Assembly: GCA_018334875.1 (NCBI GenBank)
Contig: JAGXLC010000012.1
Coordinates: forward strand, 1 to 34,035
Direction: 5' to 3'
Length of the DNA: 34,035 bases
From: Bacteroidales bacterium
Lineage (GTDB): Bacteria; Bacteroidota; Bacteroidia; Bacteroidales; UBA12077
This document shows positions 21,820 to 28,329 of this stretch, piece by piece. The position numbers and the translations under genes are program-made. The notes below the pieces were generated by a model, which worked only from the letters and a program-made list of their open reading frames with translations, was not told the DNA's origin and made no database searches. How positions within the stretch are numbered: the first letter of the stretch is position 1; each line of letters starts with the position of its first letter.

Positions 21820-23040
21820 TTATATATTACATTCCTTGGGATAACATATAAAATATTTTTTTACGATCTTTGATAAAACAGGTAAACTGAGCATGTCCGA
21901 AGCTTCACCGATGTCTTTAATCTCTTTGTTTTTATATATAATCTGAATGTTATCGTTTAAAGTACTATATGCTTTGTTGATAATGCTATCCGTGAAAACA
22001 AAAAAATTGATTTCATCATCGGTGATGTCGGATTTATTCTTTATTTGCTCTTTTAACAGGTCCACCTTGTTCTTCTCAAAAGGTACATTTTGCAGCTCAA
22101 TTTTATACAATTTTCGTTCCATAATCTGCCGGCAAAGTACGGATAATACCTTATCGTCGCATTCCATCCATGTTTTAAATGCCACCAGAATGTCCGTATC
22201 ATCGAGTCTGGAAAACATTTTGAGCATGTTATTCCTGGTATCTCTTGTATATTCTTTATGGAGAAAATATGCCAGGGATTTCGGTGCGTCTAATTTAACT
22301 CCCTGATCGATAATTGCTTTGCTGCGTTTAAAAATGTTGATTAGCATTTGCTCGGCTGATACAACCGTTTTGTGGAAATACACCTGCCAGTACATAATCC
22401 AGCGTGCTATCAGAAATTTCTCAATAGAATGGATACCTTTTGCTTCTATTACCAATTGATCATTATATACATTGAGCATTTTAATGATTCTGTCGGAGCC
22501 GATTACTCCTTCCGAAACTCCTGTATAGAAGCTATCCCTTTTGAGATAGTCGAGCCTGTCCATATCCAGTTGACTGGATACCAGTTGATGAAGGAATTTT
22601 TTATCATACGCGTTTTTGTAAATTTTTATTGCCAGATCCAGTTGACGGTCGAATTTCTGGTTAAGATGATCCATGATCATGAGGGAGAAATGCTCATGAT
22701 TATAATCTTCCATCCAGAAAGATTCGAGGGAATGAGAAAGCGGACCGTGGCCAATATCATGCAAAAGAATGGCAATTTTTACGGCTTGTGCTTCTTCTTC
22801 TGTTATTTCATGACCTTTTGACCGAATTGTGCTTATCGCAGACTGCATAAGATGAAGAGTACCAAGGGAATGCTGCAATCTTGTATGAGTAGCTCCGGGG
22901 TATACCAATTGTGTCAGCCCCAGTTGTTTAATCCTTCTCAGGCGTTGGAAAAACGGGTCCTCTATAAGATCATATATCGTTTCATCGTAAATGCTGATAA
23001 AACCATAAATCGGATCGTTAATTATCTTTTTTTTGTTCAT
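21820..23040 (-). CDS. HD-domain phosphohydrolase (dGTPase-like)
   Basis: A 406-residue protein. The HD metal-binding set is complete: His56 in HTRLQHSLGT, His94-Asp95 in AILLHDIGHGPLSHSLE, and a later Asp in QLDMDRLDYLKRDS. The start, IIYGFISIYDETIYDLIEDPFFQRL-like, is characteristic of SAMHD1/dGTPase-related bacterial proteins, many of which act on (deoxy)nucleoside triphosphates; the true substrate is not known here. The C-terminal third is family-specific. It is the first gene of the lpx transcript, 45 bases ahead of lpxD, so its activity may be tied to lipid A supply only by shared transcription. Confidence 0.85.
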   Translation of the reverse strand: MNKKKIINDPIYGFISIYDETIYDLIEDPFFQRLRRIKQLGLTQLVYPGATHTRLQHSLGTLHLMQSAISTIRSKGHEITEEEAQAVKIAILLHDIGHGPLSHSLESFWMEDYNHEHFSLMIMDHLNQKFDRQLDLAIKIYKNAYDKKFLHQLVSSQLDMDRLDYLKRDSFYTGVSEGVIGSDRIIKMLNVYNDQLVIEAKGIHSIEKFLIARWIMYWQVYFHKTVVSAEQMLINIFKRSKAIIDQGVKLDAPKSLAYFLHKEYTRDTRNNMLKMFSRLDDTDILVAFKTWMECDDKVLSVLCRQIMERKLYKIELQNVPFEKNKVDLLKEQIKNKSDITDDEINFFVFTDSIINKAYSTLNDNIQIIYKNKEIKDIGEASDMLSLPVLSKIVKKYFICYPKECNI

Positions 23041-23364: not shown

Positions 23365-23396
23365 TTTGCCAATTAATAAGATTATTTTTAATTTTG
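23365..23396 (+). promoter_or_regulatory. Promoter of rimP-nusA-infB
   Basis: TTTG at 23365-23368 and TAATTTTG at 23389-23396, 20 bases apart, match both boxes of the phylum's main promoter. Transcription should start near 23402, leaving a leader of about 70 bases before rimP. Confidence 0.6.
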
Positions 23397-23401
23397 CAGT
23401 G

Positions 23402-23452
23402 CGAAAAAAAGTGGAATTTTTTGATTGGGGACCGGGAAGTCCCCTTTTTTCG
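23402..23452 (+). promoter_or_regulatory. rimP leader with terminator-like hairpin (possible attenuator)
   Basis: GGGGAC (23427-23432) pairs perfectly with GTCCCC (23439-23444) around loop CGGGAA, followed by six T (23445-23450): a standard intrinsic terminator shape, but placed between the promoter and the rimP ATG at 23473. The predicted 5' end, CGAAAAAA (23402-23409), is complementary to TTTTTTCG (23445-23452), and its A run could instead pair with another T run at 23417-23422. These rival pairings suggest a switch that controls read-through into rimP-nusA-infB, whose second gene encodes a termination factor. No gene upstream on this strand needs a terminator here. Confidence 0.55.
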
Positions 23453-23472
23453 TATGCTTGATCGGGTAGAGT

Positions 23473-23931
23473 ATGGTAAAGAACGGCGACATAGAAAAGG
23501 CACTTAATGAGCTGACCGGCAATACAGATTTTTTTGTTGTTGATATACAAAATAAAAAAGGGAAGATAACGGTTTTTATTGATAATTACAAGGGAATTAA
23601 ACTGGAGGATTGTGTTAGAATCAATCAGGAACTGAGAAATTTATTTGCTGGGGAACTTGACGAATATAATTTGGAGGTTACCTCCCCTGGTTTAGATAGC
23701 CCTTTTAAAGTACATCAGCAATATGAAAAAAATATTGGCAATAAAGTGGGAGTATTGCTAAAAACGGGTCAGAAGATTGAGGGAAAGTTGCTTCGGACAG
23801 ATAAAGAAGGAATAGCCCTGGAAGAGAAAAAGAGGATAAAGAAGAGCAATAAAAAAAAGACAACCATACGAAAAGAACATCACATTGCTTTTGATGAAAT
23901 GGAATATACTAAAACAATAATTTCTTTTTAA
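23473..23931 (+). CDS. rimP: Ribosome maturation factor RimP
   Basis: A 152-residue cytosolic protein assisting assembly of the 30S subunit. The N-terminal half has the RimP pattern TDFFVVDIQNKKGKITVFI and LEDCVRINQELRN, then YNLEVTSPGLDSPFK, the most conserved segment (SPGLDxPL in most members). The C-terminal small barrel is rich in Lys (KRIKKSNKKKTTIRKEH), fitting RNA contact. The start at 23473 fits family length. It is first in the rimP-nusA-infB operon and 4 bases ahead of nusA. Confidence 0.94.
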   Translation: MVKNGDIEKALNELTGNTDFFVVDIQNKKGKITVFIDNYKGIKLEDCVRINQELRNLFAGELDEYNLEVTSPGLDSPFKVHQQYEKNIGNKVGVLLKTGQKIEGKLLRTDKEGIALEEKKRIKKSNKKKTTIRKEHHIAFDEMEYTKTIISF

Positions 23932-23935
23932 AAAT

Positions 23936-25180
23936 ATGAAAGAGATGGATACTGCGAATTTATTTGATACTTTTTCCGAATTTAAGGACCTCAAGAACAT
24001 CGACAGGGAAACGATGATGAATGTACTTGAAGAGGTTTTTCGCAAATCTCTCATTAAGCACTTTGGTACCGATGAGAATTTTGACATTATCATAAATATA
24101 GATAAAGGGGACTTTGAAATCTGGAGAAACAGAGAAGTTGTTAATGACGGCGAGGTAGAAGACGAGAATCTGCAAATTCCCCTTTCGCAGGCAAGGAAAA
24201 TCGATGATGATTATGAAGTTGGGGAAGAGGTAACCGATGAGGTTAAACTGGAAGATTTCGGTCGCAGGGCTATCCTTTCACTCAGACAACATCTGACATC
24301 AAAGATTCTTGAAATTGAAAGAAATAATGTTTTTGCCAAATATAAGAAGAAAATAGGCCAGATTGTCAGCGGAGAGGTTTATCAGGTCTGGAAGAAGGAG
24401 ATTTTGATTCTGGATGATGAAGGCAATGAACTGATATTACCCAGAGAAGAGCAGATTCCTTCTGATCATTTCAGGAAGGGGGATTTGCTGCGAGCTGTGG
24501 TAATAAGAGCTGAAATGAAAAACAATACTCCCCTGATCATCATTTCGAGGACTTCTCCCATATTCCTGGAGCGGTTGTTTGAATTTGAAGTTCCGGAAAT
24601 CTATGACGGTTTGATTACGATTAAAAAAATAGTAAGAGCTCCCGGGGAGAAGGCCAAGGTTGCAGTGGAATCCTATGATGATCGAATCGATCCGGTGGGT
24701 TCGTGTGTTGGAATGAAAGGTTCAAGAATTCATGGAATTGTAAGGGAGTTAAGAAATGAAAACATTGATGTTGTCAATTATACGACAAATACACAGCTTT
24801 TTATTCAAAGAGCCCTGAGCCCTGCAAAAGTGAATTCTATTAAGATCAATGAGGAAGAGAAAAGTGCAGAAGTGTTTCTTGACGCGGATGAAGTATCCCT
24901 GGCTATCGGGAAAGGCGGGTTGAATATAAAGCTGGCCAGTCAGTTAACGGGATATGAGATCGACGTTTACAGAGAGACCCAGGAAGACGAGGAGGATGTT
25001 AATATAGATGAATTTTCCGATGAAATCGAGCAGTGGGTGTTAGATGTCCTCAAGTCCGTAGGCCTGGATACGGCAAAAAGCGTATTGGAGCTGGACAAGG
25101 AAGAATTGGAGAGAAGAACGGACTTAGAGAGAGAAACGGTTGATGAGATCACGGAAATTTTTAAATCAGAATTTGAATAA
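23936..25180 (+). CDS. nusA: Transcription termination/antitermination factor NusA
   Basis: A 414-residue RNA polymerase-binding factor. The N-terminal domain (1 to about 125) binds polymerase; an S1 domain follows (about 133-200, GQIVSGEVYQVWKKEILILDDEGNE), then two KH domains, with GSCVGMKGSRIHGIVRELR and EVSLAIGKGGLNIKLASQLTG. A short acidic C-terminal tail with one helix-hairpin unit (VLELDKEELERRTDLERETVDE) ends the protein. NusA affects pausing and hairpin-dependent termination, so it could act on the hairpin in its own operon leader. A second possible start is Met at 23945. Confidence 0.96.
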   Translation: MKEMDTANLFDTFSEFKDLKNIDRETMMNVLEEVFRKSLIKHFGTDENFDIIINIDKGDFEIWRNREVVNDGEVEDENLQIPLSQARKIDDDYEVGEEVTDEVKLEDFGRRAILSLRQHLTSKILEIERNNVFAKYKKKIGQIVSGEVYQVWKKEILILDDEGNELILPREEQIPSDHFRKGDLLRAVVIRAEMKNNTPLIIISRTSPIFLERLFEFEVPEIYDGLITIKKIVRAPGEKAKVAVESYDDRIDPVGSCVGMKGSRIHGIVRELRNENIDVVNYTTNTQLFIQRALSPAKVNSIKINEEEKSAEVFLDADEVSLAIGKGGLNIKLASQLTGYEIDVYRETQEDEEDVNIDEFSDEIEQWVLDVLKSVGLDTAKSVLELDKEELERRTDLERETVDEITEIFKSEFE

Positions 25181-25254: not shown

Positions 25255-28200
25255 ATGGCAACAGACAAAAAAGTAAAGCGATTAAGTAAAGTGGCTAAGG
25301 AATTTAATGTTGGGATCCATACGCTTGTGGATTATCTCAACAAGAAGGGGTATAATGTTGACACCAATCCGAATGCAAAGGTTTCTCCTGAACAATATGA
25401 ATTATTGCTAAAGGAATATAGTTCCGAAATTGATGTAAAAAGACAATCTGAAAAAATTGGCAAGAGTTATTCTGAGACGAAAAGCTCGATATCGGTTGGT
25501 GATATGGATAAAAAAGAAGAAGAAGCAGAAACAGAAACAGAGGACAAGAATAAGGAGGAAAAAGAGGATGAGCTGTTTATTAAGGATGTAAGTGGAAAAA
25601 AAGCAGAAGCACAGGATACCGAAGAAAAAGAAGAGGAAGCAACAACTGAAAAGGAAGAGAAGAGCGAAGAAGATCAACAGGAAACAACTGAACCCAAAGT
25701 TATTGGAAAGATAGATCTGGACTCTTTCGGCAAAAGTAAGAAGAAGAAAAAAGAAGAACCTCCGAAGGAAGAAAGCAAGAAAGAAGAGCAGGTGCCTAAG
25801 GAGGAAGCTGAAAAAGAGGAGGAGCAGGTGGAAGGTAAAGAAGAACCTGTTGATACGGAAAAAGAAACGAAGGAAGAAGCGGAAGAGAAATCGGAAGAAC
25901 CTGCAGAGGAGACAGCAGGAGAGACAGATTCCGGAGTGGATGAGCAGGAAGAGGAACATAAAGAGGAGGAGATTTCTGAGGAGGAGATTTCTGAAGAAGA
26001 GATTTCTGAAGAAGAAATTTCAGAGGAGGAAAAAGAGAAAATTAAGGTGGTTGGAAAAATCGATCTGGATTCTCTGAATCAAAAAACCAGGCCTGACAAG
26101 AAAACCAGAAAAGAACGCGAAGCAGAGCGACAAGCCAAGGAAAAAGTACAGAGGGAGAAGCGAGCCCGCAAAAAAGAGACGGAAGAAGGTTCAAAAACAT
26201 CTGCCGGAGAGTCAACCGGTAAAGAAAAAGAAAAAGAACGGGAAAAGGCAGGCTCTAAAGAGGATTTCAGGCCTAAGCGAAAAAGAAGGAAAAGAATCCA
26301 TAAGGATAAAGAAAGGGTTCAGATTGACGAAAAGAAATCGGCACCCGACGAAAAGAAATACACCAGGAAAAAGAAAAAGAAGAAACGACCTGTACATAAA
26401 GATATTAAAGAGGAAGATGTCCAGAAACAAATCAAAGAAACACTTTCCAGGTTAGAAAGCAAAGGCAAGTCAAAGGCTGCAAAATACAGACGGGAAAAGC
26501 GCAATGTAATAAACCAAAGGCAGAAGGATGAAGAAGAAAAGCAGGAACAAGAAAAGAATGTACTTAAAGTTACTGAATTTGTTTCTGTTAATGAGTTGGC
26601 CACAATGATGAGTGTTCCTGTAAACGATGTTATACAAACCTGTATGAACCTGGGGCTTTTGGTTTCGATTAATCAGAGGCTGGATGCCGAAACCATGGCC
26701 CTTGTTGCCGATGAATATAATTATAAGGTTGAATTTGTAAGTGCCGAGGTACACGAAGCCATACAGGAAGATGAGGATAATGAGGAAGACCTGCAGCCTC
26801 GTGATCCCATTATTACGGTGATGGGTCACGTAGATCACGGAAAAACTTCATTGCTCGATTTTATCAGAGAGGAAAATGTTATAGCTGGCGAAGCTGGTGG
26901 CATAACCCAGCATATCGGTGCTTACCGCGTTGAAGTAGAGGAAGGGCGTAGTATCACTTTCCTTGATACACCGGGTCACGAGGCATTTACTGCCATGCGT
27001 GCCAGAGGAGCTCAGATAACCGATATTGCCATTATTGTTGTTGCGGCTGATGACAATATCATGCCGCAGACCATCGAGGCCATTAATCACGCGTCGGCTG
27101 CAGGTGTGCCCATTATATTTGCCATCAATAAAATTGATAAACCAGGAGCCAGTCCCGAAAGAATTAAGGAGGAACTGGCCAACATGAATTACCTGGTTGA
27201 AGATTGGGGTGGAAAGTATCAATCGCAGGATATTTCCGCAAAAAATGGAGTCAATATAGAGGAGCTTCTGGAAAAAGTATTGCTTGAATCAGATATTCAA
27301 GATCTTAAAGCCAATCCCAATAAACAGGCTAAAGGAACTGTTATTGAGTCATGGTTGGACCGTGGACGGGGATATATTGCCAACCTGCTTGTTCAGGGAG
27401 GTACAATGAGAGTTGGTGAGGTTATATTGGCCGGTAGTCACATGGGTAGAGTCAGAGCAATGTTCAATGAGAGGGGTCAGCGATTGGAGGCGGCCGGTCC
27501 CTCGCAGCCGGTTCAGTTGCTTGGCTTAAACGGAGCACCACAGGCCGGCGATAAGTTCAATGTTATGGAGAGTGAGAAGGAGGCCAAGGAGATTGCCAAT
27601 AAACGGGGTCAGCTTGAGCGGGAGCAGAATATGAGAACTCAGAAACACATTACCCTCGATGAGATAGGAAGAAGAATTGCCATTGGTAACTTTAAAGAGG
27701 TAAATCTTGTTGTTAAGGGTGACGTGGATGGATCCATTGAAGCCCTTAGTGATTCATTCTCTAAGCTGAGCACGGAAGAATTGCAGGTAAATATTATTCA
27801 TAAAGGAATTGGACAGATTACAGAATCGGATATCCTGCTTGCAGCAGCTTCCAATGCCATCATCATTGGTTTCCAGGTAAGACCCTCAAGTAATGCAAGA
27901 AAAATTGCAGAAAAAGAACAAATTGATATCCGCTTGTATTCAGTAATATACGATGCCATTAATGACATGAGAGATGCCCTTGAAGGCATGTTAACCCCTG
28001 AAGTTAAGGAAGAAATTACAGGATATGCCGAAGTGAAAGAAACCTTTAAAATTAAGAAAGTGGGCACCGTTGCTGGCTGTATCGTAAGAGATGGCAAACT
28101 GGAAAGAAATTCCAGGGTAAGGGTCATTCGTGATGGAATTGTAATTTATACGGGCGAGCTGGAATCCCTGAAAAGATTTAAGGATGATGTAAAAGAAGTG

Positions 28201-28329
28201 AGAGAAAGTTATGAGTGCGGACTGAATGTTAAGAACTACAACGACATTAAAGTTGGAGATTATATCGAAGGCTTTAAGCAGGTTGAAGTGAAAAGGACAT
28301 TGGACACTTCTCAGCAACAAAAGGCTTAA
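25255..28329 (+). CDS. infB: Translation initiation factor IF-2
   Basis: A 1024-residue GTPase that brings initiator tRNA to the ribosome. An N-terminal IF2_N module (1 to about 50) is followed by about 370 residues rich in Lys and Glu, then a second IF2_N-like module (about 440-495). The GTPase motifs are GHVDHGKT (524-531), DTPGH (571-575) and NKID (625-628); domains II to IV follow to the C-terminus, ending in the IF2-C2 region that binds fMet-tRNA. Within the charged part a motif occurs twice, KVIGKIDLDSFGK (148-160) and KVVGKIDLDSLNQ (264-276), and a four-fold EEISE repeat lies at about 238-257. The extension is long compared with E. coli IF2 (890 residues). It follows nusA by 74 bases. 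Confidence 0.97.
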   Translation: MATDKKVKRLSKVAKEFNVGIHTLVDYLNKKGYNVDTNPNAKVSPEQYELLLKEYSSEIDVKRQSEKIGKSYSETKSSISVGDMDKKEEEAETETEDKNKEEKEDELFIKDVSGKKAEAQDTEEKEEEATTEKEEKSEEDQQETTEPKVIGKIDLDSFGKSKKKKKEEPPKEESKKEEQVPKEEAEKEEEQVEGKEEPVDTEKETKEEAEEKSEEPAEETAGETDSGVDEQEEEHKEEEISEEEISEEEISEEEISEEEKEKIKVVGKIDLDSLNQKTRPDKKTRKEREAERQAKEKVQREKRARKKETEEGSKTSAGESTGKEKEKEREKAGSKEDFRPKRKRRKRIHKDKERVQIDEKKSAPDEKKYTRKKKKKKRPVHKDIKEEDVQKQIKETLSRLESKGKSKAAKYRREKRNVINQRQKDEEEKQEQEKNVLKVTEFVSVNELATMMSVPVNDVIQTCMNLGLLVSINQRLDAETMALVADEYNYKVEFVSAEVHEAIQEDEDNEEDLQPRDPIITVMGHVDHGKTSLLDFIREENVIAGEAGGITQHIGAYRVEVEEGRSITFLDTPGHEAFTAMRARGAQITDIAIIVVAADDNIMPQTIEAINHASAAGVPIIFAINKIDKPGASPERIKEELANMNYLVEDWGGKYQSQDISAKNGVNIEELLEKVLLESDIQDLKANPNKQAKGTVIESWLDRGRGYIANLLVQGGTMRVGEVILAGSHMGRVRAMFNERGQRLEAAGPSQPVQLLGLNGAPQAGDKFNVMESEKEAKEIANKRGQLEREQNMRTQKHITLDEIGRRIAIGNFKEVNLVVKGDVDGSIEALSDSFSKLSTEELQVNIIHKGIGQITESDILLAAASNAIIIGFQVRPSSNARKIAEKEQIDIRLYSVIYDAINDMRDALEGMLTPEVKEEITGYAEVKETFKIKKVGTVAGCIVRDGKLERNSRVRVIRDGIVIYTGELESLKRFKDDVKEVRESYECGLNVKNYNDIKVGDYIEGFKQVEVKRTLDTSQQQKA
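25966..26025 (+). repeat. Four tandem 15-base repeats inside infB
   Basis: Four units of 15 bases, roughly GAGGAGATTTCTGAG, encode EEISE four times. Units differ only at third positions (GAG/GAA, TCT/TCA), so they stay in frame and probably arose by slippage. The copy number may vary between strains. Confidence 0.85.

Follow-up and report, generated by a model that had tools for sequence, protein, structure and literature searches.

A GC-rich hairpin followed by six T separates a Bacteroidota-type promoter from the rimP-nusA-infB operon of a Bacteroidales bacterium, raising the question of whether transcription is stopped prematurely at this site and, if so, whether NusA, which is encoded just behind it, takes part in controlling its own synthesis. 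We approached this question through a stretch of 34,035 nucleotides (contig JAGXLC010000012.1 of assembly GCA_018334875.1; hereafter the window) and through comparison of its rimP leader with those of nearer relatives and of genomes from across the phylum.

Architecture of the rimP leader

TTTG forms the -33 box of Bacteroidota promoters. Their -7 box, TAnnTTTG, is given in a transcriptome report on Flavobacterium psychrophilum (PMC9723704). In the window, TTTG (23365-23368) and TAATTTTG (23389-23396) are separated by 20 nt and, judging from the position of the -7 box, the transcript would start at about 23400-23404. The hairpin with its T-tract (GGGGAC-CGGGAA-GTCCCC-TTTTTT, 23427-23450) lies thirty nt past the -7 box, with the ATG of rimP 22 nt beyond it, and nusA follows on the same strand, starting at 23936 after the end of rimP at 23931. 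Everything that an earlier, sequence-only reading had placed here was found exactly where it said: the stem (23427-23432/23439-23444) with its loop, the six T (23445-23450), an A-run and a T-run (23417-23422) (Table 1). The nearest named relatives of the window are uncultured Bacteroidales, with NusA 91% identical.

Table 1 Features of the rimP-nusA-infB locus in the window
Feature	Position	Strand	Basis or remark
HD-domain protein gene, upstream neighbour	21820-23040		divergent from rimP
TTTG, -33 box of Bacteroidota-type promoter	23365-23368	+	sequence
TAATTTTG, -7 box (consensus TAnnTTTG)	23389-23396	+	sequence
A-run CGAAAAAAA at predicted 5' end	23402-23410	+	conserved role: none found (permutation test negative)
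T-run within leader	23417-23422	+	conserved role: none found
GGGGAC, 5' arm of putative terminator hairpin	23427-23432	+	sequence, conservation, covariation
CGGGAA, hairpin loop	23433-23438	+	variable in relatives, 3-6 nt
GTCCCC, hairpin 3' arm	23439-23444	+	GTCCCC in 83/91 distinct leaders
Six T, T-tract (U-tract of putative terminator)	23445-23450	+	unbroken TTTTTT in window
rimP	23473-23931	+	PF02576 E 2.7e-9; ORF
nusA (N-terminal domain, S1, KH domains)	23936-25180	+	PF08529 E 2e-33; KH_5 9.1e-28
infB (IF-2)	25255-28329	+	PF11987 E 6.9e-41

Upstream, 432 bases separate the start of the HD-domain gene from the start of rimP. Because this gene is divergent, the hairpin is ruled out as the 3' terminator of a neighbour; a terminator on the reverse strand was likewise ruled out, there being no T-run after the stem on the - strand. 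An out-of-frame ATG (window position 23454 onwards) lies 19-20 bases before the rimP start and opens a short frame that overlaps this start, probably by chance.

Conservation across Bacteroidota

Taken alone, the hairpin in the window is not beyond chance, whereas the comparative evidence is far beyond it. In 2 kb of the window, two terminator-like sites were found against 1.2 (sd 1.1) expected by chance, and the 51-nt leader folded no better than its shuffles (z -0.46; 53/200 at least as good). The pattern GGGGACN{3,8}GTCCCC occurs in one place in the whole genome, the rimP leader; the same pattern written backwards, used as a control, is likewise present once on each strand, so this single occurrence is not evidence by itself. 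Six further gene starts in the window were inspected, and none had a hairpin with a T-tract within 150 nt.

Leaders were collected in two sets. For the nearer relatives, 104 loci yielded 101 with a rimP match and 99 leaders (L003 and L047, whose rimP matches sit at a contig end, are missing from this list), of which 91 were distinct after removal of 8 duplicates. For the phylum-wide set, NusA was found in 157/158 genomes and 130 loci were taken; the 27 omitted genomes with NusA were contig-edge, split, near-duplicate or unlisted cases, many of them from family code f17. A rimP gene was found in 129/130 of these loci and the window's own was dropped as a duplicate, leaving 128 distinct leaders from 32 family codes besides that of the window. 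Start codons of rimP in this set were guesses.

Under a single scoring rule (score 22), a hairpin with a T-tract was present in 216/219 distinct leaders as against 136/2190 shuffles, the counts here and in the covariation analysis being of sequences, not independent events, and inflated by relatedness. This comprised 90/91 nearer relatives (shuffles, 54/910) and 126/128 phylum-wide leaders (82/1280). The 22-point threshold was picked after the results of the first rule and of score 26 had been seen; at score 24 the counts were 88/91 (29/910) and 123/128 (51/1280), and at score 26 they were 78/91 (3/455) and 108/128 (11/640). With a score of 23, the window's hairpin passes the first of these cuts and fails those at 24 and 26. 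An earlier, short-loop terminator rule identified sites in 90/91 and 98/128 leaders, and reverse-strand sites too in 20/91 and 29/128. The three leaders missed at score 22 were L100, in which the hairpin is kept and the T-tract lost, and L145 and L255, which probably reflect miscalled rimP starts. A covariance model of the element (R1), which was too short, matched 34/198 whole genomes and missed the window's own; genome G108 gave a match elsewhere, on contig C2.

Covariation and rewriting of the stem

Comparing rimP leaders across Bacteroidota, as the sequence-only reading had proposed, showed that the stem covaries. MAFFT alignments A1 and A3 had gaps inside the stem or were out of register, which is why the pair counts come from the gapless alignment A2 and, by script, from the ungapped letters of A3. 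In A2 (30 rows), 99.2% of cells were paired, and 0/500 shuffles were as good. A set of 44 distinct rows gave 350/352 paired cells with changes on both sides in 6/8 pairs, again with 0/500 shuffles as good; for this set the 5-nt-loop register was applied to 19 loci, of which L158, L181 and L185 did not fit and were omitted, and 46 rows reduced to 44 distinct ones. Below the core the letters change: two steps down, the pair in the 91 nearer leaders is T-A (36), G-C (17), A-T (14), C-G (8) or G-T (3), and is unpaired in 13. Such change of letters with pairing kept indicates a constraint on pairing.

Within the core, the arms differ in how far they have drifted. Among the 91 leaders the 5' arm reads GGGGAC 65 times, GGGGGC 15 times, GGGGAT 8 times and something else 3 times, the changes mostly preserving G-U pairing, as compared to GTCCCC in 83/91 on the 3' side. 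This hints at sequence selection on the 3' arm beyond pairing.

Across the phylum, the stem has different sequences in different clades. GGGGAC/GTCCCC is found in most Bacteroidia family codes, GGGAACG/CGTTCCC in much of f3, GTGAGCG.../...CACTCAC with T7-T8 in f23, GTGGGG/CCCCAC in f17, CGCCCC/GGGCG in f16 and f34, and GGGC/GCCC in f24. By arm type, the 128 leaders comprise 70 GGG/CCC, 28 inverse (CCC/GGG), 28 that are neither and 2 without a call; exact GGGC/GCCC arms occur in 19 and exact GGGGAC/GTCCCC arms in 21. Rewriting is visible even within genus code g7, where G166 (L178) and others have GGGGAC/GTCCCC and G108 and G081 (L154 and L175) have GGCACG/CGTGCC at the same place, with several pairs differing on both arms and all pairs kept.

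Evidence for termination

The hairpin lies downstream of a conserved promoter. In 83/91 leaders the distance from the end of a TAnnTTTG box to the hairpin is 15-34 nt, compared to 0-3/91 in four of five control windows; the fifth (18/91), set at 45-64 nt ahead of the hairpin, coincides with the -33 box. The full promoter, TTTG-N18-23-TAnnTTTG, precedes the hairpin in 68/91 distinct leaders.

The window also has the arrangement that defines an intrinsic terminator, a GC stem running directly into a T-tract, and the core hairpin prevails in the leader ensemble of 82/83 cases (probability 0.96 in the window). In nearly all of the 91 leaders a T-rich tail comes straight after the stem, with T at positions +3 to +6 and +9 in 76 to 89 of them. 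The start codon, by contrast, can be as little as 10 or as much as 87 nt away from the stem, with about 17-25 nt in most. A T-tract fixed to the stem with a variable distance to rimP fits a terminator; an element acting in translation would instead keep its distance to the start codon. While the window has an unbroken TTTTTT, the tail in most Bacteroidales is TATTTTATTA, an interrupted T-tract; in Bacillus subtilis, suboptimal hairpins and U-tracts are described as sites where NusA and NusG assist (PMC8060035). The hairpin is kept and the T-tract degraded in L067, L075, L090 and L100 (the last with almost no T-tract), where termination may have been lost or the hairpin may be used alone.

Seven of the 219 leaders (L075, L087, L089, L091, L096, L097 and L098) have a tRNA-Gln gene (anticodon TTG) upstream, ending roughly 15-65 nt from the rimP hairpin. 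The nearest TAnnTTTG lies at least 100 nt before the hairpin in seven leaders, which would follow from a promoter located ahead of the tRNA. The arrangement parallels that of metY before rimP in Escherichia coli and suggests that the rimP hairpin can double as a tRNA terminator.

The view of the sequence-only reading, that an attenuator lies in the rimP-nusA-infB leader, is thus well supported by conservation, by covariation, by the position between promoter and gene and by the attachment of the T-tract to the stem. On this comparative sequence evidence, the rimP-leader hairpin is very probably a partial terminator, or attenuator.

No conserved pairing switch in the leader

The same reading had suggested that the 5' end of the RNA pairs with the T-run after the stem or, alternatively, with that at 23417-23422. 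Regulatory pairing of this kind would predict that complementarity between 5' end and tail is kept in relatives. Instead it was at chance: native 5' segments showed no better pairing to the tail of their own leader than to those of other species (mean duplex energy -2.18 versus -2.09, sd 0.14, for permuted partners; 79/300 permutations at least as good), and the window's own duplex (-4.3 kcal/mol) was equalled by 19/82 foreign 5' segments. The T-run at 23417-23422 was not shared among the leaders compared. As a general device, a switch between A-run and T-run is therefore not supported by these sequences, and no antiterminator was found in the leaders compared, in which 5'/tail pairing is not conserved.

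Relation to known rimP leaders

The main text of Naville & Gautheret (2010) describes a rimP-leader attenuator, consisting of a short terminator hairpin (GGGc...gCCC) and a U-stretch before rimP-nusA-infB, with a strongly conserved stem and no antiterminator (PMC2965389). The window resembles it as described there in the G-rich 5' arm, the C-rich 3' arm, the T-stretch, the position in the operon and the lack of a visible antiterminator. It differs in that GGGGAC...GTCCCC has its C-G pair two positions further in than the published motif; the inner c...g is not matched, so we claim only the general rimP-leader form and not the exact motif. Neither 'Bacteroid' nor 'Flavobacter' occurs in that paper's main text.

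The Rfam family RF01770 (rimP), the rimP leader of Gammaproteobacteria, shares the gene context of the window but differs in having 102 model positions and a further terminator-like hairpin upstream. It had no match at the gathering score in the window (E up to 5) and none in 16 Bacteroidota loci searched along with an E. coli positive control, which scored 102 bits. The sequence-only reading held that NusA-linked autoregulation in E. coli works through a different leader, which is misleading: the K-12 counterpart, GGGC-TTTAG-GCCC-TTTTTTT, lies directly before rimP, in the same place as the hairpin of the window, and forms the end of the E. coli member of RF01770. The window element belongs to the general rimP-leader kind as an added member and not to RF01770.

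Closer to the window phylogenetically, a 2021 transcriptome of Flavobacterium psychrophilum reports a transcribed and structured 5' element of rimP that is also conserved in further genera of Flavobacteriaceae and gives no Rfam hit; the passage on it contains neither sequence nor mechanism (PMC9723704). This is presumably the same hairpin as that of the window. Our literature search, supplements aside, found no Bacteroidota-wide description of a rimP-leader terminator, which is not proof of absence. The present comparison places throughout Bacteroidota a leader terminator known from Gammaproteobacteria and Firmicutes, and it supplies alignments for an RNA family that lacks Rfam coverage in this phylum. 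The repeated rewriting of the stem under pairing constraint favours an ancient and general control of NusA.

Proposed mechanism and alternatives

The window element is probably the version of the rimP-leader attenuator found in Bacteroidota, an intrinsic terminator that stops transcription prematurely and is subject to feedback by NusA. RNA polymerase would start near 23402 and transcribe about 25 nt before reaching the hairpin, where the nascent RNA at 23427-23450 would fold into a short GC stem-loop with U6 behind it. A fraction of the polymerases would stop there, releasing a leader RNA of about 45-50 nt, and the rest would continue into rimP-nusA-infB. From its binding site on the polymerase, close to the exit channel for RNA, NusA could stabilise the hairpin or the pause and so increase termination, such that high NusA would lower, and low NusA would raise, transcription of its own operon.

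We infer termination in vivo, NusA as the effector and the negative sign of the feedback. Feedback on top of attenuation is rather likely by analogy, being made plausible by precedent: a review credits Mondal et al. (2016) with showing that NusA of B. subtilis is autoregulated by NusA-stimulated termination in its own 5' leader (PMC12288461), and there is a proposal in PMC2965389. The proposed logic is the same; according to that review it is experimental in B. subtilis, whereas in the window it is deduced. The window's NusA has the N-terminal, S1 and KH domains, which also counts in favour.

The main rival to NusA feedback is a constitutive partial stop, which would set the basal level of rimP-nusA-infB and end the upstream tRNA in some lineages. 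This is a possibility of limited but real weight. It agrees with there being no antiterminator or second conserved structure in the leaders, with a promoter-to-hairpin segment that is not conserved and 5'/3' pairing at chance, and with the seven tRNA-Gln leaders, where the hairpin would act as a tRNA terminator. However, near-universal retention before one operon, together with strong sequence conservation within clades, suggests more than level setting, and the B. subtilis leader provides a case in which NusA stimulates termination.

RimP and ribosomal proteins bind RNA. The stem might accordingly be a sequence-specific site for another factor (RimP, IF-2, a ribosomal protein or NusG) modulating termination or translation, and the constancy of the 3' arm, set against a 5' arm that drifts mostly via G-U pairs, leans that way. 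We consider this unlikely, since other clades, and even members of a single genus code, keep rimP and nusA but have a wholly different stem sequence, which argues against a single fixed sequence read by a protein; the retained T-tract, moreover, points to termination. A hairpin with a post-transcriptional role, in mRNA stability or in translation initiation, is very unlikely: its usual position shortly before the start codon would suit such a role, but this distance is variable while the T-rich tail keeps its place next to the stem, and the T7-T8 runs of some phylum members look like textbook terminators. Finally, a functionless chance hairpin, compatible with the unremarkable single-sequence statistics, is refuted by conservation and covariation and was ruled out (216/219 leaders; 0/500 shuffles matching the stem pairing).

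Returning to termination under NusA feedback, a more speculative and rather doubtful extension is that each lineage's NusA reads, through S1-KH, the sequence of the stem and not only its shape, so that NusA and leader would form a co-evolved pair in each clade. The differing clade stems, GGGGAC/GTCCCC in most Bacteroidia and GGGAAC/GTTCCC, GTGAGCG, GTGGGG or CGCCCC elsewhere, would be the basis for this. If true, the rimP leader would be a natural record of shifting NusA RNA specificity. The simplicity of the leader (about 50 nt with one hairpin) makes it suited to tests of NusA feedback in an understudied phylum.

More elaborate or divergent arrangements were seen in a few lineages. In family codes f16 and f34 (among L217-L248), the inverse-polarity stem CGCCCC...GGGCG is followed by T5-T6 and resembles the upstream tandem terminator of Gammaproteobacteria. 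In f13 (L137-L139, L141 and L142), a second hairpin-like stretch, GCCCG...CGGGCGTTTTTT with T6, lies between the first hairpin and rimP, giving tandem terminators.
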